A stretch of DNA of 64,000 nucleotides from Deltaproteobacteria bacterium (lineage in GTDB: Bacteria > Myxococcota_A > UBA9160 > PR03): positions 62,001 through 126,000 of the forward strand of contig JAPSFT010000008.1 of NCBI GenBank assembly GCA_035063765.1. The letters run 5' to 3'. The notes under the pieces were generated by a model, which made no database searches, was not told the DNA's origin, and was given only the letters and a program-made list of their open reading frames with translations. Of the stretch, positions 33,558 through 53,513 are shown piece by piece (within the stretch, counting starts at the first letter, position 1; every line of letters starts with the position of its first letter). The translations under genes and the position numbers were made by a program.

Positions 33558-33561
<4 letters not shown>
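32230..33561 (-). CDS. sufD: SufD Fe-S assembly scaffold subunit
   Basis: This 443-residue protein is part of the SufBCD scaffold, related to SufB in its C-terminal helix-beta half. Signature-like stretches are LYKGVLAGHSRGVFSGKVLV and LEIEADDVRCSHGSTIGQLD, where the histidine and cysteine are conserved. The N-terminal half is divergent, alanine-rich and GC-driven. Start ATG 33561 overlaps the sufC stop by four bases. Confidence 0.93.
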
Positions 33562-35794
<2,233 letters not shown>

Positions 35795-35809
35795 CGCGGC
35801 GGCTCTCTC

Positions 35810-36289: not shown

Positions 36290-36368
36290 GCGGAGCAACG
36301 CGCGGGACCTCGGGACCGCGGGCGGCGACGAGCCGCCGGCGAACGGCTCCGAGATTAGGGGACCGCTC

Positions 36369-36390
36369 CAGTCCGGTAAATAGAGGACTG
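36369..36390. promoter_or_regulatory. Candidate Rrf2 operator (22-base palindrome)
   Basis: The arms CAGTCC (36369-36374) and GGACTG (36385-36390) flank a ten-base AT-rich spacer. It lies just downstream of the TATAAT -10 box of the suf transcript, so a bound regulator would block start of transcription. The spacing and length match those of Rrf2/IscR-type sites, but the sequence is not a known consensus. Binding is inferred. Confidence 0.55.
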
Positions 36391-36402
36391 AATCCATCCC
36401 TG

Positions 36403-36408
36403 ATTATA
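36403..36408 (-). promoter_or_regulatory. -10 box TATAAT of the suf operon
   Basis: On the minus strand the perfect -10 hexamer TATAAT reads from 36408 to 36403, in AT-rich DNA unlike the rest of the window. Transcription would start near 36396 and run into the Rrf2 gene. No good -35 hexamer stands at the right distance, which suggests activator-dependence or a different sigma factor. Confidence 0.65.
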
Positions 36409-36438
36409 GATGGGGTCGTCCCTCCGGGGAGGACGCGC

Positions 36439-37089
36439 TCAGTGGACTGGGGCGCCGCCCCAGAGCCGTTCGAGCCGCGCGTCGCGCCCGCAGCGGCTGC
36501 GGTAGAAGCGGTAGCGGAGGGGGTTCTTCCGCGCGTAGTCCTGGTGGTACTCCTCGGCCGGGTAGAAGGGCGCGGCGTCGCGGATCGTGGTCGCGACGGG
36601 CCCGCCGAGCCGCGCGGCGATCGCGCGCTTCGACGCCTCGGCCAGGCGCCGCTGTTCGGCGTCGCCCACGAAGATCGCGCTCCGGTACGACTCGCCGCGG
36701 TCGCAGAACTGCCCGCCGTCGTCGAGCGCGTCCACGTTGCGCCAGTAGACCTCGAGGAGCTTCGCGTAGCCGACGCGCTGCGGGTCGTAGCGCACCTGCA
36801 CCGCCTCGACGTGGCCGGTGCCGCCGGCCGAGACCTGCTCGTAGGTCGGGTTCGCGAGGCTCCCGCCGGTGTAGCCCGAGGTGGTGGAGAGCACGCCGTC
36901 GAGCGCGTCGAAGGGCGGCTCCATGCACCAGAAGCAGCCGCCCGCGAAGACGGCGCTGGCCGTCCCAGGCTCGCCCGGCTCGGGGGCAGCCGGCTCGGCG
37001 CGGCTGGCGGCGCCCGCGAGCAGCACGATCCCGATCACGCCGATCCGCCCGGCGGCCCCGATCCGCGCGCGGCCCGCAGCGCCCGTCAT
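36439..37089 (-). CDS. msrA: Peptide methionine sulfoxide reductase A, exported
   Basis: The 216-residue enzyme reduces the S form of methionine sulfoxide in proteins. The catalytic motif FAGGCFWCMEPPFD is present, with SGYTGG and a late DARLERLWGG end. A signal peptide (IGVIGIVLLAGAASRA) suggests export. It follows the CHAT-domain gene by three bases and belongs to a msrB-CHAT-msrA unit. A promoter for the suf operon lies downstream. Confidence 0.94.
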   Translation of the reverse strand: MTGAAGRARIGAAGRIGVIGIVLLAGAASRAEPAAPEPGEPGTASAVFAGGCFWCMEPPFDALDGVLSTTSGYTGGSLANPTYEQVSAGGTGHVEAVQVRYDPQRVGYAKLLEVYWRNVDALDDGGQFCDRGESYRSAIFVGDAEQRRLAEASKRAIAARLGGPVATTIRDAAPFYPAEEYHQDYARKNPLRYRFYRSRCGRDARLERLWGGAPVH

Positions 37090-37092
37090 GGC

Positions 37093-40000
37093 TCAGCCCT
37101 CGCGCTTCAAGGCGAAGTCACAGGTCCCGTAGTGGACGTAGTCCGCCCAGTCCACCGAGGCGAGCTCGCGCACCGCGCGGCGGCCGGCCTGGAGGGCCGT
37201 GCCGATCGGGGCGCCGGTGGCGAGCTCGCCGTAGAAGGTCGTGGCGAAGGCCTCGGCCCCGTCGTCGCCGACGGGCCAGTAGGTCCCCACGTAGTTCGCG
37301 ACGCCGCCGCGCAGGAAGGCCTCGGCGAAGCCGATCGTGCGGTCGACCCGGCGCCGGACGTCGAGCTCGCGGCGCCGGCGCAGCGCCGGCGAGCGGATCC
37401 GGCCCGCCTCGCAGGCGTTGAAGAACACCAGTGCGGGCAGGTGCGCGAGCCCGGCGAGGTGCGCGCCCGAGAGCACCTCGTCGCCGTGGCAGAGGATCCC
37501 GGAGCGGGCCGGCGCCTCGGGGTCGAAGAAGGCGTGGCCCGCGTAGTGCACCACGTCGTAGCGGCCCGAGCGCAGCCGGGCGAGCAGCTCGGCGCGGGTC
37601 GCCTGCTCGCGTGCGACCTCCTCGAGGCGCACCGCGCTCCCGCTCGGGAAGAGCGCCTTCAGGCGCCGGGCCTCGCGCTCGGCGCCGTCGAGGTCCGCGG
37701 TCGGGTTCGTGACGAGCAGGAGCTCCAGGGTCTCGCCGAGCCGGCGCTCCTCGAGCCACTTCGCGACCGAGAGGTTCTGCGCGGCGTAGCGGCGCGAGAG
37801 GCCCTGCTCGGCCGCGGGGAACCAGCCGTCGATGCACAGGGTCTCCCAGGGGATCCGCGACGACACCGCGTCGTGGACCACCACCAGGTGGCACTCGCGC
37901 TGCCCGGCCAGCACCTCCGAGACCGTCGGGTCGAGCACCAGCGCTCCGAGCTCGCTGCCGAAGGCCGCGAGCCGCGCCGCGGTGAAGCTGCGCGACTCGA
38001 TCCGCGCGAGGAGCCGGTCGAGATCGCGGTCCGCCACCGTGCGGGCCCCGGCCACGACCGCGGCCCGGCCGGTCGCGGTCAGCACCGCCGAGCGGAACAC
38101 CTGGGTCGCGTCGCTGCGCTCCTCGCGGTGGACGACGAGGTAGGCCTGGCTGCGCGGCGCAGGCGCGCGCCGCACGGCCTCGCCGAGCAGCGGCGGCTCG
38201 GGCAGCCGGGCCTCGTCGAAGGTCACGACCAGCTCACCGAAGAGCTCCGTGCTCGCCAGCCGGTAGAGCTCCTCCTTCAGCTCCTGGTAGCGCTCGGGGT
38301 GGGTCTCGCAGATCGTGATGCGGCGCATGCGATGCTCGCGGTCGGCGTCGAGGAGCCCGCGCACGAAGCCCCGGAGCTGGTTGTAGAGCAGCCCCTCCAC
38401 GCTCCAGCCCGAGCCGGCACCGAAGAGGACCGTCGCGAAGTCCTCGACGTGCGTGCGCACGAAGGTACGCACGATGTTCTCGGCGACGAACTGCTGCACC
38501 TCGTCGCGGAAGCCGTCGAAGGACCCGAGGCCGACGAAGAGCACGCTGTCGGCGTGCAGCAGGTGGCGCCCGGTCGGGAGGACCGAGACGGCGCCGACCT
38601 CGGCCGAGAGCATCCGGCGGGTGATGAACTCGCGCACCACGCCGGCCATCCGCTCGTCGATCGCGCGGGCGGCGCCGGCCGGGTCGACGCCCTGGAAGAT
38701 GCCGAGCGTGAGCGAGCGCGCGGGCGCCTCGGTGATGCTGCCGTGCGCGAGGCACAGCTCGATGCCGTGGGCGCGGCGGCGCGTCACCTCGACGTCGCGC
38801 AGCGAGTGCCGGAGGCCGGGCGGCGGCGCGCCGGCCCCGTCGAGCCGTGCACCGGGCACCGCCAGCGGCGGCCCGGCCGCGCGGGCGCGCGCGGAGACCC
38901 ACTCGTCGGCGAGCTGGCGCGTGTCGCGGGTGCTCCAGGAGCCGGGCTCGCGCAGCGCGATCGGGTCCTGCGGCAGCTCTGCCTCCCGCACGCGGCGCGC
39001 GCGCGCGCGCCCCGGCGGCGCCCAGCTCGTGGGGAGCCGGCTCGTGTCCCCGCCGCGGAGCAGGTCGACGACGGCCTCCGCGACCGCGCCGTTGTTGGGC
39101 AGGCTGCCGTGCGCCTCCTCGACGTACCAGGTGCGCGTGCCGCGCAGCAGCGCGAGCTCGAGCGGGACGGTGCCGTCGCCCTCCCGGCCGAGGTCGTAGG
39201 AGACCTCGCCGTCCTCGAAGCTCACGCCGACGACCGTCTCCTGGTCGACGCCGGCGATCAGCGCGATGCGCTCGTCGCCGGCCGGCTCGGGGAGCGCGCG
39301 CTGCACGGAGCGCGCGGCGTCGAGCATCGCCTGGCGGGGCGCGGGAGCGCCGCCGGGCCAGGCGGCCGCGTCGTAGAGATCGACGCCGTTCCAGCGCTCG
39401 GGCCGGGGCAGCAGCTCGTGCAGGCCCGGGAAGGTCGCGAAGAGCCGGCTCGCGAGCTCCTCGGGCCCGTGGGCGAGGTCGAGCGCCGCGAGCTTGCGCG
39501 CGAGCGAGTAGCTGCCGCGCAGCGCCTGCACCGGGCCGAAGGAGCCGTGGTTCGGCGTGCCGAGCATCACCAGGCGCGCGATCCGGCGCGCCGCCTGCGG
39601 GCGCGCGAGGGCGGCGCGCGCCACGAGCCCGCCCATGCTGTGGGCGACGAGGTGCACCCTGGCGGGCGCCGCCTCGAGCCGGTCGGCCAGCTCGCTGCCC
39701 GCGTCGCGGACGCTCTGGCGCCAGTCGAAGGGCACGAACGCGGCGTCGAAGCCGGCCAGGCGCAGGCGCAGCGCGAGCTTCAGGTAGGCGAAGAGCACGA
39801 CGCCGCACGGCACGATCCTGCCGGCGTCGGGCAGCGCCAGCGCGAGCAGCCGGCCGCGGGCGATCTCGAAGGGGTCGATCCAGATCACGTCGGCCGCGCC
39901 CTTCCGGCGCCGCCCGAGCTGCGAGCCCATGATCCCGGGCAGGATCCAGACCGGCGGCCCGCCGCGCCGGGGCTCGCGGCGCGCCTCGCGCGCGAGCTCC

Positions 40001-40206
40001 TCGAGCTCGCGCGTGAGCTCGGGCCCGAAGGCGTCCTCGAGCACGCCCCGGTGCTCGCCGGTGGCGAGCAGGCGCTCGACGTCTGCGTCGCCGAGCTCCG
40101 GGAGCGCTCGCAGGGCCGGCGCGGGCGGAGCGGAGGCGCGGGCGCGCGGGCGGCGCGCGGCTGCGCCACGGGGCTTGGCGCGGGAACTCCGCCTCTTCCT
40201 GGCCAC
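37093..40206 (-). CDS. Three-domain protein: alpha/beta hydrolase, M17-N-like and CHAT protease
   Basis: This 1,037-residue protein has no signal peptide; its first 30 residues are basic. A lipase/LCAT-like hydrolase (about residues 85-385) shows ILPGIMGSQL, the nucleophile Ser190 in VAHSMGGLV, a likely Asp344 in GDGTVP and His366 in EEAHGSLP. A middle domain (about 475-620) looks like the N-terminal domain of M17 aminopeptidases (LGIFQGVDPAGAARAID, VLFVGLGSF). The C-terminus (about 775-1035) is a CHAT caspase-like protease with His891 in HYAGHAFFD and Cys932 in FFNACEAG. The end GTYWPVGDDGAEAFATTFY is typical of CHAT. It lies three bases before msrA and 33 bases after msrB. Substrates are unknown. 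Confidence 0.88.
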   Translation of the reverse strand: MARKRRSSRAKPRGAAARRPRARASAPPAPALRALPELGDADVERLLATGEHRGVLEDAFGPELTRELEELAREARREPRRGGPPVWILPGIMGSQLGRRRKGAADVIWIDPFEIARGRLLALALPDAGRIVPCGVVLFAYLKLALRLRLAGFDAAFVPFDWRQSVRDAGSELADRLEAAPARVHLVAHSMGGLVARAALARPQAARRIARLVMLGTPNHGSFGPVQALRGSYSLARKLAALDLAHGPEELASRLFATFPGLHELLPRPERWNGVDLYDAAAWPGGAPAPRQAMLDAARSVQRALPEPAGDERIALIAGVDQETVVGVSFEDGEVSYDLGREGDGTVPLELALLRGTRTWYVEEAHGSLPNNGAVAEAVVDLLRGGDTSRLPTSWAPPGRARARRVREAELPQDPIALREPGSWSTRDTRQLADEWVSARARAAGPPLAVPGARLDGAGAPPPGLRHSLRDVEVTRRRAHGIELCLAHGSITEAPARSLTLGIFQGVDPAGAARAIDERMAGVVREFITRRMLSAEVGAVSVLPTGRHLLHADSVLFVGLGSFDGFRDEVQQFVAENIVRTFVRTHVEDFATVLFGAGSGWSVEGLLYNQLRGFVRGLLDADREHRMRRITICETHPERYQELKEELYRLASTELFGELVVTFDEARLPEPPLLGEAVRRAPAPRSQAYLVVHREERSDATQVFRSAVLTATGRAAVVAGARTVADRDLDRLLARIESRSFTAARLAAFGSELGALVLDPTVSEVLAGQRECHLVVVHDAVSSRIPWETLCIDGWFPAAEQGLSRRYAAQNLSVAKWLEERRLGETLELLLVTNPTADLDGAEREARRLKALFPSGSAVRLEEVAREQATRAELLARLRSGRYDVVHYAGHAFFDPEAPARSGILCHGDEVLSGAHLAGLAHLPALVFFNACEAGRIRSPALRRRRELDVRRRVDRTIGFAEAFLRGGVANYVGTYWPVGDDGAEAFATTFYGELATGAPIGTALQAGRRAVRELASVDWADYVHYGTCDFALKREG

Positions 40207-40239
40207 GGAGCCTCCTCCCTCCCGGGCTCGGGCGGCGCC

Positions 40240-40773
40240 TCAGGCGCCCGTCCGCAGCGCCGGCAGCGGCTCGCTCTCGGGAACGAAACGCAGCGCGACG
40301 CCGTTGTTGCAGTAGCGCAGGCCCGTCGGCGCGGGGCCGTCGGAGAAGACGTGGCCCTGGTGGCCGCCGCAGCGGGCGCAGTGGTACTCGGTGCGCGGCC
40401 ACAGCAGCGAGAAGTCGCGCCTCGTGCCGATCGCGCCCGGCAGGTGGTCGGAGAAGCTCGGCCAGCCCGTGCCGCTCTCGAACTTCGCCTGCGAGGCGAA
40501 CAGGGGCAGGAAGCACGCGGCGCACAGGTAGGTGCCCGCGCGCTTCTCGCGGTCGAGCGGGCTCGTGCGGGCGGGCTCGGTCGCCTCCTCGAAGAGCACC
40601 GCGTAGGCGTCGGCGGGGAGGAGCTCCTTCCAGCGCGCCTTCGGCAGCTCGAAGGGCTCGACGGTGGGGACGCCGGGCGCGCGCGCCGGGGGCTCCTCCT
40701 CGGCGCGCGCGCGCAGGCCGGCGGCGGCGCCGCTGGCGAGGAGCAGCAGGCGCAGGAAGCCGCGGCGGTTCAC
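40240..40773 (-). CDS. msrB: Methionine sulfoxide reductase B, Tat-exported
   Basis: The 177-residue protein reduces the R form of methionine sulfoxide. The zinc motifs CAACFLPLF and CARCGGHQGHVFSDG flank the core; FESGTGWPSF and the catalytic RYCNNGVALRF are present. The start VNRRGFLRLLLLASGAAAG is a twin-arginine signal, so MsrB works outside the cytoplasm. GTG 40773 is chosen because the Tat motif follows at once, with AGGGGA upstream. It leads the msrB-CHAT-msrA unit. Confidence 0.95.
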   Translation of the reverse strand: MNRRGFLRLLLLASGAAAGLRARAEEEPPARAPGVPTVEPFELPKARWKELLPADAYAVLFEEATEPARTSPLDREKRAGTYLCAACFLPLFASQAKFESGTGWPSFSDHLPGAIGTRRDFSLLWPRTEYHCARCGGHQGHVFSDGPAPTGLRYCNNGVALRFVPESEPLPALRTGA

Positions 40774-40914
40774 GAGCTGTCCCCTGCCTCGCGCGCCGTC
40801 ACCTGCATGGCCTCGACCTCGCGCAGTGCCGCTTCGGCGAAGGGCGGCCCGCATGGGGGTCTGGCGCATTTGGTAGCGTGTCGGCGGCGTCGCTGCGTCA
40901 GGGAGAGCCGGAAC

Positions 40915-41400
40915 GTGCGTGGCCGTACCCTCGTCTTCGCGACCGTGCTCCTGCTGGCGGTGGGCTGCGACCAGGCGACCAAGCAGCTCGCCGTCGAGCG
41001 GCTGGAGGGCGCTCCGCCGATCTCGCTCGCCGGCGACGCGGTCCGCTTCCAGCTCGCCGCGAACACGGGAGGGTTCCTGAGCCTCGGCGACGGCCTCCCG
41101 CCCGTCTGGCGGCGGGTCGTCTTCGTCGGCCTGGTGCCGGCCTGCCTGCTCGTGGTCTGTGCGCTCGTGCTGCGCTCGCGCGAGGTGTCGGCGGCCGCGA
41201 TGGTGGGCCTCGGCCTCGTGGTCGGGGGCGGGCTCGGCAACTGGCTCGACCGGGTCGGTGCGGGCGCGGTGACGGACTTCGTGAGCCTCGGGATCGGTCC
41301 CCTGCGCACGGGCGTCTTCAACCTCGCGGACGTGGCGATCGTTGCCGGCGTGCTCCTGCTCGCGCTCGTGCGCTCCGAGGGCGAGCGGCCGGAGCCCTGA
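40915..41400 (+). CDS. lspA: Lipoprotein signal peptidase
   Basis: The 161-residue membrane protein has four helices and the aspartate-peptidase motifs: CDQATKQLAVERL near the start, the conserved NTGGFLSLG, GGGLGNWLDRV, and FNLADVAIVAG with the second catalytic aspartate. It cuts signal peptides of lipoproteins such as those at 7918 and 42211. The start is GTG 40915, with GGGAG upstream. It is divergent from msrB, 141 bases away. Confidence 0.94.
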   Translation: MRGRTLVFATVLLLAVGCDQATKQLAVERLEGAPPISLAGDAVRFQLAANTGGFLSLGDGLPPVWRRVVFVGLVPACLLVVCALVLRSREVSAAAMVGLGLVVGGGLGNWLDRVGAGAVTDFVSLGIGPLRTGVFNLADVAIVAGVLLLALVRSEGERPEP

Positions 41401-41493
41401 GGGACCCCGCGCGCGAATTGCCGCTTGACTCCGCCCCCCCCTCGGGCGAGGCTCGGACCGGGGCGAGGTCGGGCGCACGCGGTGGAGGGAGTC

Positions 41494-42192
41494 ATGGGTC
41501 TCCTCGACGAGCTCGTCGGATCGCTGACCGCCAGCGACCGCAACGTGTCGAACGACCAGGCGGGTGCGCTCGTGCGGGGCGTCCTCGCGTCGCTCGCCGG
41601 GGGCGGCCAGGAGGCGGGCATCGAAGGCCTCTCCCGGCGCCTCCAGGGCGCCGGTCTCGGCGACGTGATCTCCTCCTGGATCGGCGCCGGCGCGAACCAG
41701 CCGGTGGAGCCGAGCGCGCTCGACCGCGCGCTGCGCGGCAGCCCGCTCGACGGCGTGGCCTCGCGGGCGGGGCTCGGCGGGATCGCCGGCGCAGCGGCGC
41801 TCGCGGTGCTGCTGCCCAAGCTGATCGACAAGCTCACGCCCGGCGGGCAGGTGCCGCCGGCCGAGCGGCTGCGCGACGTCGCGGCCCAGGCCCAGTCCTC
41901 CGACCCGTTGCGGGGCCCCGCACCCTTCGCGCAGGCTGCCGAGAGCGGCGGCGGCGCGAAGCCGAAGGCGGACTTCTCGAAGGTGCGCAGCGGCGCCTCG
42001 TCGAGCGCGCCGGCTCCTGGCCCCGTGCCGGAGAAGACCTACACGGTGGCCCAGGGCGACAGCCTCTCGAAGATCGCCCGGAAGGCCTACGGTGACGCCA
42101 ATCAGTGGAAGCGCATCTTCGAGGCGAATCGCGACCAGATCGAGAACCCCGACCTGATCCACCCGGGCCAGGTGCTGCGCATCCCGGACTGA
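41494..42192 (+). CDS. YidB/DUF937-like protein with C-terminal LysM
   Basis: The 232-residue protein has a DUF937/YidB-like N-terminus (MGLLDELVGSL and RLQGAGLGDVISSWIGAGAN), an alanine- and glutamine-rich linker, and a C-terminal LysM domain (YTVAQGDSLSKIARKAYGDA, then ENPDLIHPGQVLRIPD). LysM binds peptidoglycan. No signal peptide is evident. ATG 41494 has GGAGGGAG upstream; a longer frame from 41425 has no ribosome site. Confidence 0.87.
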   Translation: MGLLDELVGSLTASDRNVSNDQAGALVRGVLASLAGGGQEAGIEGLSRRLQGAGLGDVISSWIGAGANQPVEPSALDRALRGSPLDGVASRAGLGGIAGAAALAVLLPKLIDKLTPGGQVPPAERLRDVAAQAQSSDPLRGPAPFAQAAESGGGAKPKADFSKVRSGASSSAPAPGPVPEKTYTVAQGDSLSKIARKAYGDANQWKRIFEANRDQIENPDLIHPGQVLRIPD

Positions 42193-42210
42193 GTCGCTCG
42201 AGGAGGTCCC

Positions 42211-42702
42211 ATGCATCGCCACGTCCTGCGTCTGGCGGCCGTCGCCGCCCTCGCCGCGCCGCTGGCGCTCGGCGCCTGCAAACGCTCCGAGACGGCCCCC
42301 GCGGCCCCGGCGCCCGCGCCGGCACCGGTGCCCAAGGTCGAGAGCCCGCCGCCCACGGCGGCCCCGGCGCCCGCCCCGTTCCGGGTCACCAGCATCGAGG
42401 TCGGCAACGCCGTCAACGCCGACCGGCGCGTGACCGCACCGACCGCGACGCTCGCACCCGGCGACACGATCTATACGTCGGTCGCGAGCGACGGCAGCGC
42501 GCCGAGCGTGACCCTCACCGCGCGCTGGACCTTCGAGGACGGGCAGGTGGTCGACGAGACGACCCAGACGATCGCGCCCCGGGGCCCCGCCGCCTCGGAG
42601 TTCCACATCTCGAACGCCGGCGGGCTTCCGCCCGGCCGCTACCAGGTCGAGATCCTGGCCGACGGCAAGTCCGTCGGCACCCAGCAGTTCGAGGTGCGCT
42701 GA
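42211..42702 (+). CDS. Small lipoprotein of unknown function
   Basis: The 163-residue protein has a lipoprotein signal (AALAAPLALGACKRSE, with LGAC lipobox), then a proline-alanine linker (APAAPAPAPAPVPKVE), then a beta-rich domain of about 110 residues (VTLTARWTFEDGQVVDETTQ, ISNAGGLPPGRYQVEIL). The end resembles bacterial Ig or FN3-like folds. Function is unknown. It follows the LysM gene by 18 bases. Confidence 0.82.
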   Translation: MHRHVLRLAAVAALAAPLALGACKRSETAPAAPAPAPAPVPKVESPPPTAAPAPAPFRVTSIEVGNAVNADRRVTAPTATLAPGDTIYTSVASDGSAPSVTLTARWTFEDGQVVDETTQTIAPRGPAASEFHISNAGGLPPGRYQVEILADGKSVGTQQFEVR

Positions 42703-42735
42703 CCGCTCACCTGCTTCCGGACCGCGGACGTCGCG

Positions 42736-43989
42736 CTAGGCGTCGCTCTCGATCGTGGCGCGGCGCGCGAGCGAGGTCAGGACGCCGAGGCCCCCGCGCG
42801 GCCAGGCGAGGGGTGGGGTCTGGAGCCGGCCCGGCGCGCACCGGCGCGAGGCCTCGCCGTCGAGGAGCAGGCCGTGCGGGACGGCGCAGGTCGCGAGCCC
42901 GGCGAGCGGCGCGCCGCGCAGGACGCCGCCGAGCTCCGGCGGCGTCACCGCCTGGACGCGCACGAAGCGGTGGAGCGGCGCCGGACGCAGCCGCGCGCCG
43001 GCCTCGCAGACGACGGTCCAGGCGGTGCCGCTCCCGGTGCGGAGCGCGACGGGCTCGCCCGCCGCGGCGCGCAGCTCGGCCTCGGCTCGTTCGCGCGTGA
43101 TCGCTGCCGCCGCGGCGGGCTCGATGCGGCCGCGCGGCATGCGGTGCTCGAGCGCCGTGAGCGCGCCGGCCAGCGCCTCGGCGAAGCGCTCCGCCGCGCG
43201 CAGGTCGCCGAGCACGAAGACCGCGATCGGCGAGAGGCAGCCGAGCTGGTCCCAGAGCGCCGTGTCGAGCGCGACGCCGCGCGCGGCGCGCAGCAGCGCG
43301 GCCCCGCGCGTGGCCGCCTCGCCGATCACCGCCAGCGAGACGCGGTGGCCGTGCCCGACGAAGCGCCGGGCCGGCGCGACGCGCGCGGCGAGCGCCGCGA
43401 TCGCCGCGTCGCTGCCGGTCGCGACGACGCACTCGGCCCGGCACAGGGCGTCGAGCGCGGCCGGGTCGTCGCGGCGGAAGTCGGCGATCGCGATGCACGC
43501 GCCGAGCTCCGGCATCCGCTCGGCGAGCGCGCGGGCCAGGAGCGGAGCCGTGACGGGGTCGTGCGCCGGAAGCTTGACCAGCACCGGCGAGCGCAGGACG
43601 AGCGGGGCGATCATTGCCGTCACCGTGGGGAGCGGGATCGCTCCGGCCAGCACGACGGCGGTGGTCGCGAAGCCCTGCCACGACGCCGCGGCACGCGGGT
43701 CGAGCGCCTCCGTGCCGCCGAGCTCGCTGCGCACGAGCGCGTGGAGCGCCTCGCCGCCGAGCGGCGCGAGCCCGAGCGCGAGGCCCCGGCGCACGGTCTC
43801 CGGCGAGAAGCCGGTACAGGCCGGCAGGCGCTCCACGAGCTCCGCCTGCCAGGGCGACCCGGGCGCGCGCCAGGCGTCGAGCACGTCGGCGAGCGCCGCG
43901 TGGACCTGGGCGGGCGCGCGCGCGCGCAGCTCCGCGCCGGCCTCGCGCAGGCGCGCGAGCGCGCCCGCGACCTCGGCGCCGGCGCTCAC
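42736..43989 (-). CDS. LuxC-like acyl-CoA/acyl-protein reductase
   Basis: The 417-residue protein belongs to the acyl-CoA reductase family of LuxC. The catalytic cysteine is in LWDQLGCLSPIAVFVLG; conserved stretches include FVGHGHRVSLAVIGEAA and LVLRSPVLVKLPAHDP. The enzyme reduces an acyl group to an aldehyde with NADPH. The start is GTG 43989, overlapping the LuxE-like stop (GTGA). No LuxA or LuxB is present in the window, so bioluminescence is not suggested. Confidence 0.88.
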   Translation of the reverse strand: MSAGAEVAGALARLREAGAELRARAPAQVHAALADVLDAWRAPGSPWQAELVERLPACTGFSPETVRRGLALGLAPLGGEALHALVRSELGGTEALDPRAAASWQGFATTAVVLAGAIPLPTVTAMIAPLVLRSPVLVKLPAHDPVTAPLLARALAERMPELGACIAIADFRRDDPAALDALCRAECVVATGSDAAIAALAARVAPARRFVGHGHRVSLAVIGEAATRGAALLRAARGVALDTALWDQLGCLSPIAVFVLGDLRAAERFAEALAGALTALEHRMPRGRIEPAAAAAITRERAEAELRAAAGEPVALRTGSGTAWTVVCEAGARLRPAPLHRFVRVQAVTPPELGGVLRGAPLAGLATCAVPHGLLLDGEASRRCAPGRLQTPPLAWPRGGLGVLTSLARRATIESDA

Positions 43990-45125
43990 GGCGCCAGCAT
44001 CTCGTCGGCTGCGATCGAGCAGCCGCGCGCCTCGGCGCCTGGCTCGCGGCCCCGCACCTCGAAGCCGCCCGCGACCGTGCGGCCCAGGTCCGCGGTCTCG
44101 ATCGCGGCGACGCTGCCGGTGTTGGCGAGGTCGTGGATGCGGATCACGCCGATGGCGCCGGGCGCCGCGTCCTCGCCGGTCTCGGGGTCGATCACGCGCA
44201 CCCGCGCCCAGGGAGGGGCGAGCTTGCGGCGCGGCTCGCCTGGGGAACACAGGACCGAGTCGTAGAACTGCGAGCCCAGCTCCGTCATCCCGTACTGGTT
44301 CACGATCCGGGTGGCCGGGACGCCGAGCGCGCTCGCGATGCCTTCGTAGAGCGCCTCGCGCGGCAGCTCGCGCGAGCGGCCCTTGAAGCCGCCCGTCTCC
44401 ATGACGCGCGAGCCGGCGGGCAGCGCGAGCCGCGCGCCGCGTGCGGCCAGCGCGTCGAGCAGGTGCACGAAGCCGAAGGCGGTGCCGCACAGGGCGACCG
44501 GCACGCCCTCGGCGCCGGCGCACTCGAGGGCCGCGAGCAGGCCCGCGGCGTCGAGCGCTCCGCCGCGCACGTCGAAGCCGCTCCCGGCGTCGCCGAGCGC
44601 CGCCAGGACCACGCCGAACATGTGGGAGAGCGAGGAGTCGGGCGCCTCGGCCGGCGCGGGCGCCAGGATCCGCAGCCGCGCCCGCGCGCCGGGCGCGAGG
44701 TCCGGCACTACGCCGCGCCGGAAGCTCGGCAGGAGCGAGGCCTCGTAGAGCGCGAGCGTGTCGAGGTGCAGGACGCCGCGCCGCTCCGCGGCGGTGCCGC
44801 TGGTGCGAAAGGCGTGGGCCTCGCAGGGCTCGGGGAAGCTGCGCAGCGCGAGCTCCTTGAAGGCCCCCGCCGGCACCGCCGGGATCGCGCGCCAATGGGC
44901 GACCGTCTCCGGGGTCCGCCCGCGCCCCGCGCAGAAGCGCCGGTAGGGCGCGCAGTGCGCGAACTGGAACGCGAACAGGGCGCGCGCGAGCGCGTCGAAG
45001 CGGGGCTCGTCGCCGGCGTCCGCCGGCCCGGACAGCGGCTCGCGCATCCAGGCGAGGACGCGCGCGTCGAGCTCCGCGCGCGCGGGGTCGGGCCCGCGCG
45101 CGCCCGGCGGCGCGCCGGCCTTCAC
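43986..45125 (-). CDS. LuxE-like acyl-protein synthetase
   Basis: The 379-residue protein is an ANL-related acyl-protein synthetase of the LuxE type. It has the AMP-forming loop HAFRTSGTAAERRGVLHLDT and the late NQYGMTELGSQFYDSVL. Family members activate a fatty acid as acyl-AMP and pass it to a LuxC cysteine. The short N-terminal 20 residues may be shorter. The stop overlaps the LuxC start, so the pair are coupled. Confidence 0.87.
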   Translation of the reverse strand: MKAGAPPGARGPDPARAELDARVLAWMREPLSGPADAGDEPRFDALARALFAFQFAHCAPYRRFCAGRGRTPETVAHWRAIPAVPAGAFKELALRSFPEPCEAHAFRTSGTAAERRGVLHLDTLALYEASLLPSFRRGVVPDLAPGARARLRILAPAPAEAPDSSLSHMFGVVLAALGDAGSGFDVRGGALDAAGLLAALECAGAEGVPVALCGTAFGFVHLLDALAARGARLALPAGSRVMETGGFKGRSRELPREALYEGIASALGVPATRIVNQYGMTELGSQFYDSVLCSPGEPRRKLAPPWARVRVIDPETGEDAAPGAIGVIRIHDLANTGSVAAIETADLGRTVAGGFEVRGREPGAEARGCSIAADEMLAP

Positions 45126-46411
45126 GCCGCGAGCGCCTCCGCGAGGAGGTCGAGGGCGCCGAGCAGCAGGTCCTCCTCGATCGTGAGCGGCGGCGTCACC
45201 GAGACGACCTCCCCCGCGTCACCGGAGGGGATCACGATGACGCCGCGCCGGAGCGCCTCGGCGCAGGCGCGCAGCGCGCGCGCGCCCTCGTCGCACTCGA
45301 TCCCGAGGAGGAGCCCGCGCCCGCGCACGGCGCGCACGTGCCCGGCGGCGAGCGCCGGCGCGAGCCGCGCGCGCAGGTGGGCGAGCACCCGCGCGCCCAG
45401 CGTGGCCGCGCGGGCGGCGAGCTTCTCCTCCTCGAGCACGGCGAGCGCCGCCAGCGCGGCCGCGCAGCCCGGCGGGTGGCCGAGGAAGGTCTGGGTGTGG
45501 AGCGATTCGCCGGTCGAGGCGGGCCAGGCGTCCATCACCGCCGCGCGGCCCAGGCAGGCCGAGACGGGCATGCCTCCGGCGAGCCCCTTGCCCGCGCACA
45601 GCAGGTCCGGGACCACGCCCTCGTGGTCGACCGCCCAGGTCCGCCCGGTCCGTCCCAGTCCGGTGTAGACCTCGTCGGCGATCAGCAGCCAGCCTTCGCG
45701 GTCGCAGAGCGCGCGCAGGCCCGCGAGGAAGCCGTCGGGGGGGATCCGCTCGCCCCCGCGGCCCTGGATCGGCTCGACCAGCACGGCGCCGACCGGCGGG
45801 CGCGCCCCGGCTGTCGCCCGCGACACGCTGGAGACGTCGCCGAAGCGGGCGAAGACGGTGGCGCCGGGCAGGCGCGCCGCGAAGGGCGCCCGGAACTCCG
45901 GACGCCAGGTGGCGTCGAGCGCGCCGAGCGAGAGGCCGTGGTAGGCGCCCTCGAAGGCGACCACCCCGGCGCGGCCGGTCGCGAGCGCGGCGGTCTCGAG
46001 CGCCGCCTCGACGGCGTCCGAGCCCGACGAGCCGAGCACCGCGCGCGCCGGGCCGCCGCCCGGGAAGAGCGCCGCCAGGCGCTCCAGCAGCTCCACCTTG
46101 ACCGCCGCCGGATGGACGTCGCCCATCGCGTGCAGGAGCGTCGCGCCCTGCGCGCCGAGCGCCGCCACCACGCGCGGGTGGGCGTGCCCCGCGCTCGCGA
46201 CGCCGAAGCCGGCGCCGAGGTCGACGAAGCGGTTGCCGTCGGCGTCCCAGACGTTGGCGCCGGCGGCGCGCTCCCAGAAGATCGGCGGCTCGGGCGCGAG
46301 GCAGGTGACGTTGCGTGACTCGACGCGCGCGAGGCGCGCCGCCAGGGCGCGCGAGCGCGGGCCGGGGACCTCGCTCACGAGGGCAGGCGGCAGGTTGCGC
46401 GGCGGCGTCAC
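45122..46411 (-). CDS. Class III PLP-dependent aminotransferase
   Basis: The 429-residue enzyme is an omega-type transaminase. The PLP lysine is in LLCAGKGLAGGMPVSACLG, with LLIADEVYTGLGRTG and FEGAYHGLSLGAL. It should swap an amine for a carbonyl. It is first in a unit with LuxE and LuxC, overlapping in ATGA with the next gene (45122-45125), which suggests the LuxC aldehyde is its substrate. Alternatively it acts as a GSA-aminomutase-like or ornithine-type enzyme. Confidence 0.92.
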   Translation of the reverse strand: MTPPRNLPPALVSEVPGPRSRALAARLARVESRNVTCLAPEPPIFWERAAGANVWDADGNRFVDLGAGFGVASAGHAHPRVVAALGAQGATLLHAMGDVHPAAVKVELLERLAALFPGGGPARAVLGSSGSDAVEAALETAALATGRAGVVAFEGAYHGLSLGALDATWRPEFRAPFAARLPGATVFARFGDVSSVSRATAGARPPVGAVLVEPIQGRGGERIPPDGFLAGLRALCDREGWLLIADEVYTGLGRTGRTWAVDHEGVVPDLLCAGKGLAGGMPVSACLGRAAVMDAWPASTGESLHTQTFLGHPPGCAAALAALAVLEEEKLAARAATLGARVLAHLRARLAPALAAGHVRAVRGRGLLLGIECDEGARALRACAEALRRGVIVIPSGDAGEVVSVTPPLTIEEDLLLGALDLLAEALAA

Positions 46412-46497
46412 GGCCGCAATGTAGCGGCCGGCCCGACCCGGGAGCTGCGCGCGGCGCTTGCGGGGCTCCGCGCGCCGTCGCGCCCTATCCTGCGGCG

Positions 46498-47514
46498 ATG
46501 GCTGCGCCGAGCGCTGCGTCCCTCACCGACGGGCTTGCCGCCCGCGCGCGCCTGCGCGCCGGCTGGCTGGCGCTCGGGACCGGCGCCGCCGTCTTCGCCG
46601 TGAAGCTCGCCGCCTGGCGGCTCACCGGCTCGGCGGCGGTGCTCTCGGACGCCCTCGAGTCGATCGTGAACGTGGTGGCGGCCGCGCTGCTGCTCTTCAG
46701 CCTCTACGTCTCCGTCCGGCCCGCCGACCGCGACCACCCCTATGGCCACGGCAAGGTCGAGTTCTTCTCCGCCGGCGTGGAGGGAACCCTGATCGGCGTC
46801 GCCGCGCTCTGGATCGCGGCCGAAGCGCTGCGCGCGTTGTGGCGGGGCCCCGCGCTCCGCCAGCTCGAGCTCGGGCTCGGCCTCGTGGCGGCGGGCACGG
46901 CGGCCAACGCGCTGGTGGGCTGGCACCTGGTCCGGGTGGGCCGCCGCGTGCGCTCGCTGGCGCTCGTCGCCGACGGCCGGCACCTGCTCACCGACGTCCT
47001 CACCAGCGCCGGGGTGCTGGTCGGGCTCGCGGCCGTGCGCGTCACCGGCTGGGTGGTGCTCGACCCGCTGGTCGCGCTGGCGGTCGCGCTCCAGATCCTG
47101 CGCACCGGCTGGCGGCTCGCGCGCCAGGCGGTCGGCGGGCTCATGGACGAGGCCGATCCCGAGACGCTGCAGAACATCGTCGCCGCGCTCGAGGGCGCGC
47201 GCGAGCCCTGGTGGATCGACGCCCACAGCCTGCGCGCGTGGCGCTCGGGCGCCGCCGAGCACGTCGACCTGCACCTGGTGGTGCCACGCTACTTCGACGC
47301 CGACCGCCTGCACGGGATCAGCGAGCAGGTCGAGAAGGTGGCGCTCCGCGGCGCGGGCCTGCCTGGCGAGGTGATCGTCCACTTCGACCCCTGCCGTCCC
47401 CGCTACTGCGCGGGCTGTCCCGTCGAGGCCTGCCCGGTGCGCTCGGCGCCCTTCGCGACGCGCCGCCCGCTCACGCTCGAGCGCGCCACCCGCGAGGACG
47501 AGGCGCTCGGGTGA
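46498..47514 (+). CDS. Cation diffusion facilitator (CDF) transporter
   Basis: The 338-residue protein has six membrane segments; metal-site motifs are VLSDALESIVNVVAAALLLF and LVADGRHLLTDVLTSAGVLVG, each with aspartates or histidines in pairs. The cytosolic C-terminal domain has HVDLHLVVPRYFDADRLH. A cysteine-rich end (CRPRYCAGCPVEACPV) is unusual and may bind metal. It exports divalent cations such as zinc. The stop overlaps the folK start (GTGA). Confidence 0.92.
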   Translation: MAAPSAASLTDGLAARARLRAGWLALGTGAAVFAVKLAAWRLTGSAAVLSDALESIVNVVAAALLLFSLYVSVRPADRDHPYGHGKVEFFSAGVEGTLIGVAALWIAAEALRALWRGPALRQLELGLGLVAAGTAANALVGWHLVRVGRRVRSLALVADGRHLLTDVLTSAGVLVGLAAVRVTGWVVLDPLVALAVALQILRTGWRLARQAVGGLMDEADPETLQNIVAALEGAREPWWIDAHSLRAWRSGAAEHVDLHLVVPRYFDADRLHGISEQVEKVALRGAGLPGEVIVHFDPCRPRYCAGCPVEACPVRSAPFATRRPLTLERATREDEALG

Positions 47515-48041
47515 GCGAGGACGCCTACGTCTCGATCGGCACGAATCTCGGCGATCGCGACGCGCACCTGGCGCTGGCGCTGCGCCGCCTCGCCGAGCTG
47601 CCGGAGACCGCCCTCACAGCGGTGTCGCCGGTCTTCGAGACGGATCCGGTGGGGCCACCGCCCCAGGGCCCCTTCCTCAACGCGGTGGCGAAGCTGCGCA
47701 CGGAGCTCGGGCCGCGCGCGCTCCTCGACGCGCTGCTCGCGATCGAGCGGGAGGCCGGCCGCGTGCGGAGCGTGCCCAACGCGGCCCGCAGCCTCGACCT
47801 CGACCTGCTCCTCCACGGCGAGCGCGTGCTCGACGAGCCCGGCCTGACGCTCCCGCACCCGCGCCTCGCCGAGCGGCCCTTCGTGCTGGAGCCCCTGACG
47901 GCGCTGGCGCCGAGGCTCGTGCACCCGACCCTCGGCGAGCCGATCGCGGCGCTCGCCGCGCGCGTGCGGGACCCGCGCGCCGTCCGTCCGCTCGGAGCCT
48001 GTGAAGGAATCGGCGACCGAGCAGCGCGCCGTCGCCGGTGA
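47511..48041 (+). CDS. folK: Dihydropterin pyrophosphokinase
   Basis: The 176-residue enzyme makes the pyrophosphate ester of hydroxymethyl-dihydropterin for folate. SIGTNLGDRDAHLALALRRL and the FolK signature RSLDLDLLLHGERV are seen, with LPHPRLAERPFVLEPL. The start is GTG 47511, inside the CDF stop. The C-terminal codons run into a long inverted repeat (47995-48014). Confidence 0.95.
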   Translation: MSEDAYVSIGTNLGDRDAHLALALRRLAELPETALTAVSPVFETDPVGPPPQGPFLNAVAKLRTELGPRALLDALLAIEREAGRVRSVPNAARSLDLDLLLHGERVLDEPGLTLPHPRLAERPFVLEPLTALAPRLVHPTLGEPIAALAARVRDPRAVRPLGACEGIGDRAARRRR

Positions 48042-48065
48042 CCGAGCCGATTCCTTCACAGGCTC
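47995..48065. repeat. 20-base perfect inverted repeat spanning the folK stop
   Basis: The left arm is 47995-48014, in the folK coding end, and the right arm is 48046-48065, just before the stop of the convergent gene. The arms are perfect complements and are separated by 31 bases. It could terminate both genes, but no T-run follows; a REP-like or transposed origin is possible. Confidence 0.7.
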
Positions 48066-48746
48066 TCAGGCGCAGGTGAAGCGCACCGTCGCGTGACCCG
48101 CGGCGGCGTCCACGCGCCAGTCTGCGTCCGACCTTGCTGCCAGCATCCGGGCCGCCTCCTCGACGAGCGCCAGCCACGGGCCGCCCGGGCTCGGCGCGGC
48201 GGCCTCGGGCGAGCGCCGCTCCATCGACACCTCGAGATGTCGGCCGCAGGGCTTGCCGACCGCGACGTGCAGCTCGCTCCCGCCCGGCGCCTCACGCAGC
48301 AGCGCCTGCGCGGCGAGCAGCAGCAGGAGCTCGGCATCGGCGCGCCGCCCGCGCACCCAGGGCGTCTCGGCCGGCACGTCCCAGGAGAGCTCGACGCTCG
48401 CGCTCACCGTCTCGCGCAGCACCGGCGCGAGGCCGCGGGCCAGCGCCCCGAGGTCCACCTCGCCCGGCTCGCCGGGCCGCCAGGCGCCGCGCGTCTGGAG
48501 CGCGCGGCCGAGCCGCACGCAGCGCTGCGCCTCGCGCTCGATGCCGGCGCAGGCGCGTGCCACCACCGGGTCGCCGGGGCGCTCCTCCGCGAGCCAGCGG
48601 AGCTCGCCGAGGATGGCGGTGAGCGCGTTGTTCCAGGCGTGCGCGGCCCCGAGCGCCATCCGGCGCAGCGCCTCGAGCTGCGCGAGCTCGCCGGCGACGG
48701 CAGGGTCGAGGCACACCGGCGGGCCCGTCTCCATGGGGGTCTCCAT
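48066..48746 (-). CDS. Degenerate histidine-kinase-like protein
   Basis: The 226-residue protein has a HisKA-like helix (LRRMALGAAHAWNNALTAIL) with a conserved histidine, but the ATP domain lacks the G boxes (no DxGxG). The area LLLLLAAQALLREAPGG replaces the N box. It probably serves as a pseudo-kinase or histidine phosphotransfer protein. No sensor domain or signal peptide is seen. It converges on folK. Confidence 0.7.
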   Translation of the reverse strand: METPMETGPPVCLDPAVAGELAQLEALRRMALGAAHAWNNALTAILGELRWLAEERPGDPVVARACAGIEREAQRCVRLGRALQTRGAWRPGEPGEVDLGALARGLAPVLRETVSASVELSWDVPAETPWVRGRRADAELLLLLAAQALLREAPGGSELHVAVGKPCGRHLEVSMERRSPEAAAPSPGGPWLALVEEAARMLAARSDADWRVDAAAGHATVRFTCA

Positions 48747-48888
48747 CGAATCGGCATCGGCCCCGATTGAGGGATCATTTCAACGCTGATCGACTCGGAA
48801 ATACGGGAGTTGCATTATCGGCAGCGAAGTCGGAAATTGCCGCACCGGCTTCGCCGGTCCGGATGCGCGCCGGAGGGGTCGCTCCGAG

Positions 48889-49695
48889 ATGAGAGGCGTC
48901 GAGATGGCAGCCGCCGAGACCATCGCCAACCCCAGCGCCGGCGCGCCGCGCTCCGAGCCGGCGGCGCTCGCCGAGATCGCGAGCGGGCGGCTCGAAGCCC
49001 TGGGCGCCGAGGCGCTGCTGCGCTGGGGTCTCGCGCGCTTCCATCCGCGCCTTGCGCTCTCGTGCTCGTTCGGCGCGCCCGAAGGGCTCGTGATCCTCGA
49101 CATGATGCAGCGCATCGAGCCCGCGGCGCGCGTCTTCATGCTCGACACGGGCCGGCTCCCGCAGGCGACCCACGACCTCGTCGACCGCGTGCGCGATCGC
49201 TACGGGGTCCGGGTCGAGGTGGTGTTCCCGGACGCCCAGGCGGTGCAGGACATGGTCCGCCGGCACGGCCAGAACCTCTTCTACGAGTCGGTGGCCAGCC
49301 GCCAGCTCTGCTGCCGGCTGCGCAAGGTGGAGCCGATGCGGCGCTACTTCGCCGAGGCCGGCGTCGACGCCTGGGTGGCCGGCCTGCGCCGGGAGCAGGG
49401 CGTCACGCGCCAGGACGCCCCGAAGGTCGAGATCGACGCCGCCCACGGAGGCCTGGTCAAGATCAACCCGCTGGCGGACTGGAGCCACGACCAGGTCTGG
49501 GCCTACGTCCGCGAGCACCAGGTGCCGGTGAACCGCCTGCACCGCGAAGGCTATCCCTCCGTCGGCTGCGAGCCCTGCTCGCGCGCCATCCAGCCCGGCG
49601 ACGACGTCCGCGCCGGCCGCTGGTGGTGGGAGAGCGCCGACACCCGGGAGTGTGGAATCCACGTCGGAGAGGAGAGCGGTGGCTCGGGCATCTGA
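48889..49695 (+). CDS. cysH: Phosphoadenylyl/adenylyl sulfate reductase, assimilatory
   Basis: The 268-residue enzyme reduces APS or PAPS to sulfite with thioredoxin. SRQLCCRLRKVEP and SVGCEPCSRA hold the [4Fe-4S] cysteines, so APS is the likely substrate. The C-terminal ECGIHVGEE carries the catalytic cysteine. Start ATG 48889 or 48904 (MAAAET) both have a ribosome site; the second has GAGAGG seven bases upstream. A 17-base overlap with the next gene suggests co-translation. Confidence 0.94.
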   Translation: MRGVEMAAAETIANPSAGAPRSEPAALAEIASGRLEALGAEALLRWGLARFHPRLALSCSFGAPEGLVILDMMQRIEPAARVFMLDTGRLPQATHDLVDRVRDRYGVRVEVVFPDAQAVQDMVRRHGQNLFYESVASRQLCCRLRKVEPMRRYFAEAGVDAWVAGLRREQGVTRQDAPKVEIDAAHGGLVKINPLADWSHDQVWAYVREHQVPVNRLHREGYPSVGCEPCSRAIQPGDDVRAGRWWWESADTRECGIHVGEESGGSGI

Positions 49696-51142: not shown

Positions 51143-51224
51143 CCGCGTGCGGCCCCGGGCGCCCGGTTCGCGCCGCGGGCCGAGGGCTTGGCGGCGGCCG
51201 GGGCCTGGCGGACACTCGCCGGCC

Positions 51225-53513
51225 ATGGATCCCACCCGCCCGACCCCCCTCGCCGCCCTCGTCCTCCTCCTGGCCCTGCCCGCCCCGGGCGCCTTCGCAG
51301 ACGGCCTCATCTCCGAGACCCTGCTCCGCGCGCGCCAGCAGGAGTACATCGAGCACGCCACCGAGGTGTTCAGCCCCGCGAGCTTCCTCAACGTGATCAA
51401 CCACCTCGAGCGCGAGGAGCGCGAGCCGGGCTACACGGTGGCGGCCGGCTCGATCCCCGACGACGCCTGGGATGCGCAGTTCCAGAAGATCCACGAGCTG
51501 CGCGACACCAGCGACTTCGACGTGATGTACCTGCTGAACCTGCTCTACGCGCATCGCGGTCACCCGGCTGCCAGCGAGGCGCTCTGGGCGAAGGCCGAGC
51601 AGGCGGTCCTCACCTTCAAGTTCTGGTTCAGCGACCCGACGCCGGCCCGCAGCTACGCGGACAGCGGCGAGCCCGTGATCGACCGGATGTGGTACTGGAG
51701 CGAGAACCACCTCCTGATCTTCCGCACCGACGAGCTGCTCGCGGGCAAGATGTTCCCCGGTGCGGTCTTCCCGGTGAGCGGGCTCACCGGCGCGCAGCAC
51801 GCGGCGCGCGCGCGCACCGAGATCCTGCGCTGGCTCGGGGAGCGCTCGCGCTGGGGCTTCACCGAGTGGCACTCGAACGTCTACTACAACCTCGACATGC
51901 TGCCGCTCCTGACCTTGATCGAGTGGAGCGGCGACGCCGAGATCGTGGCGGCCGCCACCAAGGTGCTCGACCTCCTCTGGCTCGACGTGGCGCTGCACCT
52001 GCACCGGGGCACCTTCGGCGCCACCCACGGGCGCTCCTACATCAAGGACAAGGCCTCGGCCGACACCGAGGACACTTTTCCCGCCTCGAAGATGCTCTTC
52101 GACGACACCGTCCTGCCCTACGGGAGCCGCGGCTCGAGCAGCGCCACCCTGTTCGCGCGCGCCGATCACTACCGCATCCCCGAGGTGATCCGCCGGGTCG
52201 CGCGCAGCGACGACGTGCTCTGGGGTCGTGAGCGCATGAGCCTGCCGCTGCCCGAAGCGCCGCCGCCCGCCTACGACACCCCGCTTCCGCCGCCACCCTA
52301 CGGGCTCGGCTACGGCGAGGAGGACCTGACCCTGTGGTGGTCGCTGGCGGCACAGCCCGTGTGGCCGATCCTGCCGCTCACGCTCACCGTCGGCGAGGAG
52401 TACGACCTGTGGGCGGGGCAGTTCGCCGACTTCAAGGTGCTGCGCGACCTCGTGTGGGTGCCGGGCGACCTCGACGCCACGATGTCCTATGCCTGGATCC
52501 TCTACAAGGATCTGTGGAAGGCGATCACCCAGTCGGTGCTGAGCGAGGTGAACACCGTCGTCTACCGCACGCCGGACTACATGCTCTCGACGGCGCAGGA
52601 CTGGCGCAAGGGGCTGCGCGGGCAGCAGACCCACACCTGGCAGGCGACGCTCTCCGAGCGGGCGATGGTCTTCACGACCCAGCCCGGCTACCTGCCGATC
52701 CCGCTCGGGGGCCCGCTCCCGCCGAGCTGGGACTGGCAGGCAGAGGACGAGCCCGGTCCCGGCTACTGGACCGGCGAGGGCTCGCAGCCGCGCGCCGCGC
52801 AGTACCAGAACGTGGCGATCGCGATCTACGCGCCGCAGTTCCAGTCGGGCACGCTCCTCGGCCTCGCCCCCTTCCGCTATCGCAACGAGACCCACGCCTA
52901 CTTCCCGCACGCGCACTTCGACGAGGTCGTGCAGGAGGGCTCCTGGACCTTCGGCCGCAAGGACGACGGCTACGTGGCGCTCTTCTCGCACCAGCCGACC
53001 GCGTGGCGCACTGGCCAGCCCGAGGTGTTCCAGAACGCGGGCCTGCCCTTCGACCTGGTCGCCGACGGCGCACAGAACCTCTGGATCGTCGAGTGCGGGA
53101 GCGCTGCCGAGTGGGGCAGCTTCCAGGCCTTCCGTACCGCGATCACCGAGGCCTCGGTGACGATCACGCCGGTCGCGGACCAGGACGCCGACTCGTTCCC
53201 GGACGGCTTCGACCTGAGCTACGTCTCGCCGAGCCGGGGGCTCGTGACCTTCGGCTGGCACCTCCCGCTCACGGTCGAAGGCGTGGGCGTCGTGCCGTTC
53301 AGCGGCTACCCGCGCTTCGACAACCGCTACCTCGAGACCGACTTCGACAGCCGGCGCTACGAAGTGGTGGATGGCGAGTGGTCGCTGCTGCTCGACTTCG
53401 AGACGGGCGAGCGGATCGCAGCGCCCGAGGCCGCGGCCACGGCGCAGGCGCTCGTGGCCCTGGCCGCACTCGCGGGCCTCGCGCGCCGCTGGCGGAAGGT
53501 GTCCCGGACCTGA
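51225..53513 (+). CDS. Large secreted protein of unknown function with PEP-CTERM-like tail
   Basis: The 762-residue protein has a signal peptide (LAALVLLLALPAPGAFA) and a C-terminal sorting-like tail: APEAAATAQALVALAALAG, hydrophobic, then RRWRK. The middle is rich in tryptophan and tyrosine (DRMWYWSENHLLIFRTDELL, GFTEWHSNVYYNLDMLPLL), like alpha/alpha-toroid carbohydrate enzymes, but I recognise no family. A tail variant with A for the last P of PEP is seen. Its last 157 bases are antisense to the next gene's end. Confidence 0.78.
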   Translation: MDPTRPTPLAALVLLLALPAPGAFADGLISETLLRARQQEYIEHATEVFSPASFLNVINHLEREEREPGYTVAAGSIPDDAWDAQFQKIHELRDTSDFDVMYLLNLLYAHRGHPAASEALWAKAEQAVLTFKFWFSDPTPARSYADSGEPVIDRMWYWSENHLLIFRTDELLAGKMFPGAVFPVSGLTGAQHAARARTEILRWLGERSRWGFTEWHSNVYYNLDMLPLLTLIEWSGDAEIVAAATKVLDLLWLDVALHLHRGTFGATHGRSYIKDKASADTEDTFPASKMLFDDTVLPYGSRGSSSATLFARADHYRIPEVIRRVARSDDVLWGRERMSLPLPEAPPPAYDTPLPPPPYGLGYGEEDLTLWWSLAAQPVWPILPLTLTVGEEYDLWAGQFADFKVLRDLVWVPGDLDATMSYAWILYKDLWKAITQSVLSEVNTVVYRTPDYMLSTAQDWRKGLRGQQTHTWQATLSERAMVFTTQPGYLPIPLGGPLPPSWDWQAEDEPGPGYWTGEGSQPRAAQYQNVAIAIYAPQFQSGTLLGLAPFRYRNETHAYFPHAHFDEVVQEGSWTFGRKDDGYVALFSHQPTAWRTGQPEVFQNAGLPFDLVADGAQNLWIVECGSAAEWGSFQAFRTAITEASVTITPVADQDADSFPDGFDLSYVSPSRGLVTFGWHLPLTVEGVGVVPFSGYPRFDNRYLETDFDSRRYEVVDGEWSLLLDFETGERIAAPEAAATAQALVALAALAGLARRWRKVSRT

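Follow-up and report, generated by a model that had tools for sequence, protein, structure and literature searches.

A conserved aminotransferase, LuxE and LuxC gene trio of Myxococcota as a probable route from carboxylic acids to primary amines

Why a class III aminotransferase should be encoded together with a LuxE-family and a LuxC-family protein is the question raised by a three-gene locus of a Deltaproteobacteria bacterium. The locus lies in a stretch of 64,000 nucleotides, which is referred to here as the window, on contig 8 of a 4.4-Mb draft genome (G000 in our survey). A first-pass annotation, made from the letters of the window, had placed the trio at 42736-46411 and proposed that it turns a fatty acid into an amine. 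Its position was borne out, and all three families were matched there on the minus strand, with the following features.

45122-46411, minus strand: class III aminotransferase (AT) dependent on pyridoxal 5'-phosphate (PLP), 429 amino acids (aa), GTG start; PF00202, E = 1.1e-93
45758-45760, minus strand: codon of AT R218
45587-45589, minus strand: codon of AT K275
45200-45202, minus strand: codon of AT S404
45122-45125, minus strand: GTGA overlap of the AT stop and the LuxE start, read from the sequence
43986-45125, minus strand: LuxE-family acyl-adenylating / acyl-protein synthetase, 379 aa, GTG start; PF04443, E = 6.4e-12
44019-44021, minus strand: codon of LuxE C369
43986-43989, minus strand: GTGA overlap of the LuxE stop and the LuxC start, read from the sequence
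42736-43989, minus strand: LuxC-family acyl-thioester reductase, 417 aa including the GTG start; PF05893, E = 1e-40
43237-43239, minus strand: codon of the LuxC catalytic cysteine

AT, LuxE and LuxC all start with GTG. The first-pass annotation had described one ATGA and one GTGA overlap; both four-base overlaps read GTGA, and that between AT and LuxE may couple the translation of the two genes. We consider it probable, with moderate confidence, that AT, LuxE and LuxC act in a single anabolic pathway leading from a carboxylic acid to a primary amine.

The first support for this reading is the conservation of the trio, the search for which in other genomes had been suggested by the first-pass annotation. 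Lack of conservation would have refuted the proposal, but the trio is near-universal in the order and widespread in the phylum. Among assemblies that were mostly drafts, LuxE was detected in 57 of 61 sampled genomes (the window genome and its relatives, nearly all of its order) and in 228 of 284 Myxococcota genomes. Of 63 Myxococcota-type loci in the GTDB species genomes, 62 have AT as the gene immediately upstream of LuxE, and the remaining locus begins at a contig edge; LuxC immediately follows LuxE in 60 of the 63. Elsewhere in the phylum, profile searches of 19 sampled loci gave 12 full trios, three pairs of AT and LuxE, three pairs of LuxE and LuxC, and one LuxE alone, and trios were also found in two loci of Verrucomicrobia and one of UBP4. 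Since the same gene order recurs in tens of genomes, chance is excluded as the origin of the trio. The tree distances of AT, LuxE and LuxC are correlated with each other (0.78-0.81 across 55 loci).

A conserved order may also be a matter of inertia, with unrelated housekeeping genes remaining adjacent by happenstance, and within the class the trio does belong to a conserved block, with CysH/FolK on one side of it and the SUF operon on the other. We give this explanation practically no credence because the surroundings of the trio differ in other parts of the phylum, and it is refuted by genomes in which AT is unlinked and still co-occurs almost perfectly with LuxE. The class-level block itself (e.g., L058, L062, L071, and L073) has CysH, FolK or a cation diffusion facilitator transporter upstream of the trio and an Rrf2 regulator with the SUF operon downstream; in the window, its flanking genes are present around the trio (33558-49695) with extra genes interposed.

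Regarding the unlinked genes, 221 of the 284 Myxococcota genomes carry both a trio-type AT and LuxE, seven carry LuxE only, two carry AT only, and 54 carry neither, with the AT threshold set at a visible gap between trio-type sequences (E < 1e-104) and ordinary class III enzymes (1e-90 to 1e-98). In one family of Myxococcota (f18), AT is located elsewhere on the chromosome and is nevertheless kept; three of these genomes (G066, G185, and G130) are single contigs, and in G066 LuxE is at C1:4528722 and AT at C1:3891311. A similar pattern was obtained for 150 Gemmatimonadota genomes at an AT threshold of E < 1e-120, with AT in 44, LuxE in 46, and LuxC in 45. All 44 genomes with AT have both LuxE and LuxC, and AT alone occurs in none of the 150; LuxE without AT was found in G367 and as a weak match in G449, and LuxC without AT in G367. 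AT is unlinked in this phylum, being far from LuxE where both are on one contig (e.g., approximately 650 kb in G308). Fisher p values of approximately 1e-47 (Myxococcota) and 6e-36 (Gemmatimonadota) overstate independence because shared ancestry is ignored; nonetheless, the pattern repeats in two phyla. The persistence of co-occurrence where AT is unlinked favors a shared function over simple adjacency, and supports a single pathway in which AT acts with LuxE-LuxC.

In family f18 (loci L163, L164, L165, L166, and L168), the unlinked AT adjoins a gene resembling a NUDIX hydrolase, as judged by eye, and LuxE-LuxC lies beside dnaN-recF in several genomes.

The aminotransferase itself carries a signature of its own. 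It is a single-domain class III protein of 429 aa without the fused thioester reductase domain of TamH-type enzymes, and the PLP lysine and LuxC cysteine noted in the first-pass annotation are both present as K275, which is invariant in all 67 aligned sequences, and C250, which is invariant in aligned relatives. Its nearest families are GabT-like and putrescine-aminotransferase-like, although it scores below the curated cut-offs of all; glutamate semialdehyde aminotransferase, named at the outset as the alternative that would overturn the proposal, is not suggested by these matches. GabT, PuuE and YgjG share the fold family, the PLP lysine and overall similarity with the trio ATs, and an HT motif is common to the trio AT and YgjG. 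These three enzymes keep the Glu of EPxQGEGG together with a C-terminal Arg (R398 of GabT in E. coli numbering). In contrast, the compared trio ATs have Arg (R218) in place of the Glu, giving the motif EPxxGRxG, and Ser, Ala, Gly, Gln, Glu or another residue at the position of the C-terminal Arg (Ser404 in the window). The window AT thus lacks the residue pair that marks GabT and putrescine aminotransferase. The full signature, namely Arg218, a residue other than Arg at 404, and Leu160, is present in the checked trio ATs, linked or unlinked, with a single exception of Val at 160, and is absent from GabT, PuuE and YgjG. In a quick tree, the trio ATs grouped in one clade, which holds 44 sequences with a support of 0.74 and excludes the GabT, PuuE, YgjG and L102 references. 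The loss of the usual carboxylate-binding Arg and the gain of a new Arg nearby suggest an altered donor or acceptor site.

The same comparisons bear on the direction of the pathway. AT may act upstream, making a keto or amino acid for LuxE, or may run in reverse and deaminate an amine to an aldehyde; enzymes of class III catalyze reversible reactions and many of them serve catabolism, AT heads the operon, and it has lost the donor switch of GabT. We regard such an arrangement as improbable because the oxidation of an aldehyde would need no ATP-consuming LuxE, and the chemistry of LuxC in known members of the family proceeds towards the aldehyde.

Turning to the two Lux families, LuxE scores 45.5 bits against PF04443 (gathering cut-off, 24.9) and LuxC 140.4 bits against PF05893 (cut-off, 21), and both are therefore members of these families. 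The acyl-accepting cysteine of LuxE is C369 in the motif RGCS, the catalytic cysteine of LuxC (protein P0001) is C250 in QLGCLSP, and the former is likewise invariant among aligned relatives. Profiles built from the relatives matched the two proteins of the solved LuxC-LuxE fatty acid reductase complex of luminous bacteria, LuxE (7xc6_E) at 3.9e-31 with the GCS motif and C369 aligned, and LuxC (7xc6_A) at 2.6e-38 with C250 aligned. The two systems thus share both families and their catalytic cysteines, and presumably the chemistry from acyl-AMP through acyl-cysteine to aldehyde. They differ in their partner, which is luciferase in luminous bacteria and an aminotransferase in the trio, where no luciferase genes adjoin. 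The arrangement of a lux operon, with luxA and luxB beside luxC and luxE, is absent; there is no PF00296 match within the window, as the first-pass annotation had also noted for luxA/B.

The genome of the window has 18 PF00296 genes, the nearest of which lies approximately 5.6 kb past the right end of the window (C8:131580-132509), and in 13 loci (e.g., L073:5706-6746) the trio has a luciferase-like monooxygenase gene of this family at a distance of a few kb. These genes are probably F420/FMN oxidoreductases. In another locus (L152:100-2487, minus strand, genome G183), the LuxE and LuxC matches fall in a single open frame of approximately 795 aa; either a genuine gene fusion or an error of assembly may account for this.

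Considering these features, the pathway may be envisaged as follows. LuxE would use ATP to form an acyl-adenylate and would then load the acyl group on its own Cys369; the LuxC cysteine would receive this group from LuxE, and reduction by NAD(P)H would release an aldehyde. AT, as an enzyme of a specialized clade, would then move an amino group onto the aldehyde to give a primary amine, with glutamate or alanine as the putative donor and Arg218 as a possible new anchor for its carboxylate. Class III aminotransferases are known to act on aldehydes freed by thioester reduction, as does MxcL in myxochelin B biosynthesis with a reductase other than that of the trio. PigE of the prodigiosin pathway, which is among the sequence matches of AT, acts similarly on an aldehyde from thioester reduction; however, the window AT scores 245.7 bits against a PigE cut-off of 850, and the PigE pathway uses another reductase.

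The closest parallel in logic is the tambjamine pathway, in which TamA and TamH convert a C12 acid to an amine, and the L-Glu-using transaminase takes C7-C14 aldehydes (PMC9594044). Acid activation, thioester reduction to an aldehyde and PLP-dependent transamination to a primary amine are common to both, and the cascade shows that the same logic can operate in nature and in the test tube with other protein families. TamA combines an adenylation domain with an acyl carrier protein, and in TamH a transaminase is fused to a thioester reductase, whereas the trio consists of separate genes and its first steps would be performed by the LuxE and LuxC families on protein cysteines. Moreover, TamA and TamH belong to one natural-product cluster, while the trio is near-universal in a phylum.

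Several points weigh against an acid-to-amine pathway. It is a prediction from sequence. LuxE scores 42.3 bits against the 550 of the luminous long-chain NCBIfam equivalog NF052244, and LuxC 55.6 bits against the 750 of NF052251; since these cut-offs are missed widely, long-chain specificity cannot be transferred, and the proteins are filed in their families only. The neighbors of the trio across loci are housekeeping genes that vary from locus to locus (the SUF operon, a ribosomal protein operon, dnaN-recF, and def-fmt), and in the many loci read they gave no hint of the product. Furthermore, the absence of the C-terminal Arg that binds the donor carboxylate makes the donor, and even the direction, uncertain. 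Of the first-pass proposal, the joining of AT with LuxE-LuxC in one pathway stands, with acid-to-amine conversion as its simplest chemistry; the fatty acid, the alkylamine and the lipid head group are conjectural parts of it.

The acid is about equally likely to be a medium- or long-chain fatty acid or a small polar acid, and the confidence expressed above in acid-to-amine conversion covers both and is divided between them. The fatty version, which was that of the first-pass annotation and would yield an alkylamine or an amine of a membrane lipid, is a tentative possibility. The founding members of LuxE and LuxC use long-chain acids, TamA and TamH demonstrate that fatty amines are made by such a route in nature, and a near-universal presence in the phylum fits a membrane component. 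On the other hand, the luminous equivalogs are not matched at their cut-offs, relatives of LuxE and LuxC occur in polar-acid contexts and in flagellar glycan islands, no lipid genes were found beside the trio in the neighborhoods read, and a LuxD thioesterase was not recognized among the neighbors, although no search aimed at LuxD was made. An example of a polar-acid context is RfbN of V. cholerae, which contains a LuxE domain and is involved in the synthesis of O-antigen tetronic acid (PMC4772473).

A small polar acid (amino, hydroxy or dicarboxylic), converted to a diamine, an amino alcohol or an omega-amino acid for a cofactor, the cell wall or a glycan, is likewise a tentative proposal. 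It draws on the nearness of AT by sequence to GabT and putrescine aminotransferase, the HT motif shared with YgjG, and the use of LuxE-family enzymes in sugar-acid pathways, and is opposed by the absence from AT of the Arg residues with which GabT holds the substrate carboxylate and by neighborhoods that indicate no one small acid.

A special case of a small amine is putrescine, for which the trio may be a replacement route from 4-aminobutyrate through 4-aminobutanal. AT resembles putrescine aminotransferase and, in a search of the two phyla with TIGR01273, arginine decarboxylase was detected in 15 of the 44 Gemmatimonadota genomes with the trio, a smaller share than the 72 of 106 among the others. 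This case is weakened by the presence of arginine decarboxylase in the genome of the window (E = 3e-234) and in many trio-bearing Myxococcota; the trio is thus not the only putrescine route of this genome. Fifteen Gemmatimonadota genomes carry both, and the bias may simply reflect clade membership. We consider a putrescine replacement very unlikely. A search for the spermidine synthase family in the genome of the window gave weak matches only.

If the trio is indeed an acid-to-amine pathway, its place among other LuxE-LuxC modules has to be considered. In Pantoea, Erwinia and Azospirillum, a LuxE that is approximately 43-47% identical has LuxC adjacent and a short-chain dehydrogenase/reductase (SDR) in the place of AT, which suggests reduction of the aldehyde to an alcohol or an unrelated SDR step. 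Trio-type AT was not found in the Pantoea-group genomes tested or in the NC10 genomes tested, in which LuxE-LuxC is followed by an ATP-binding cassette (ABC) transporter (L104 and L114). Because trio-type AT is lacking in these genomes, it sets apart a distinct branch in the use of LuxE-LuxC. These arrangements fit a common aldehyde-making LuxE-LuxC core with exchangeable last steps, which is our interpretation.

In an Azospirillum locus (L032), as in L104 and L114, the genes after LuxE-LuxC encode an ABC importer, with a substrate-binding protein similar to NMT1/THI5 in L032; the SDR is also present in Azospirillum. In a Nitrospirota locus (L102:9891-13710), the gene after LuxE-LuxC encodes a class III aminotransferase of the ordinary kind. 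This locus was rejected as a member of the trio because this enzyme keeps the GEGG/Arg signature and falls outside the trio clade, and it is possibly an independent recruitment.

We found no description in open-access papers of such a trio, searched for as LuxE/LuxC with an aminotransferase, in Myxococcota, or under myxobacterial alkylamines. It is conceivable, though we advance this tentatively, that an undescribed core pathway is common to the majority of Myxococcota and part of the Gemmatimonadota, in which LuxE-LuxC and a dedicated AT supply a primary amine as a regular component of the cell, for example a membrane lipid based on an alkylamine. A trio that is near-universal in much of a phylum, taken together with the charge swap in the active site of AT, points to a common metabolite that has seemingly never been named. 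If the product is a fatty amine, it would represent a new core lipid, and the enzymes could be used to make bio-based amines from acids; a small amine would reveal a hitherto unrecognized branch of core metabolism. The co-occurrence offers a clean predictor of which organisms make the product.

In addition to the loci described above, AT and LuxE in L149 (3436-8791) directly follow a block of ribosomal protein and RNA polymerase alpha genes, identified by eye. Two further proteins of the window are recorded here.

51147-53513, plus strand: predicted protein of 788 aa without a Pfam match
37093-40206, minus strand: protein of 1037 aa with an alpha-beta hydrolase region of lipase/PGAP1/LCAT type, the N-terminal domain of an M17 aminopeptidase and, at the C terminus, a caspase-like CHAT domain

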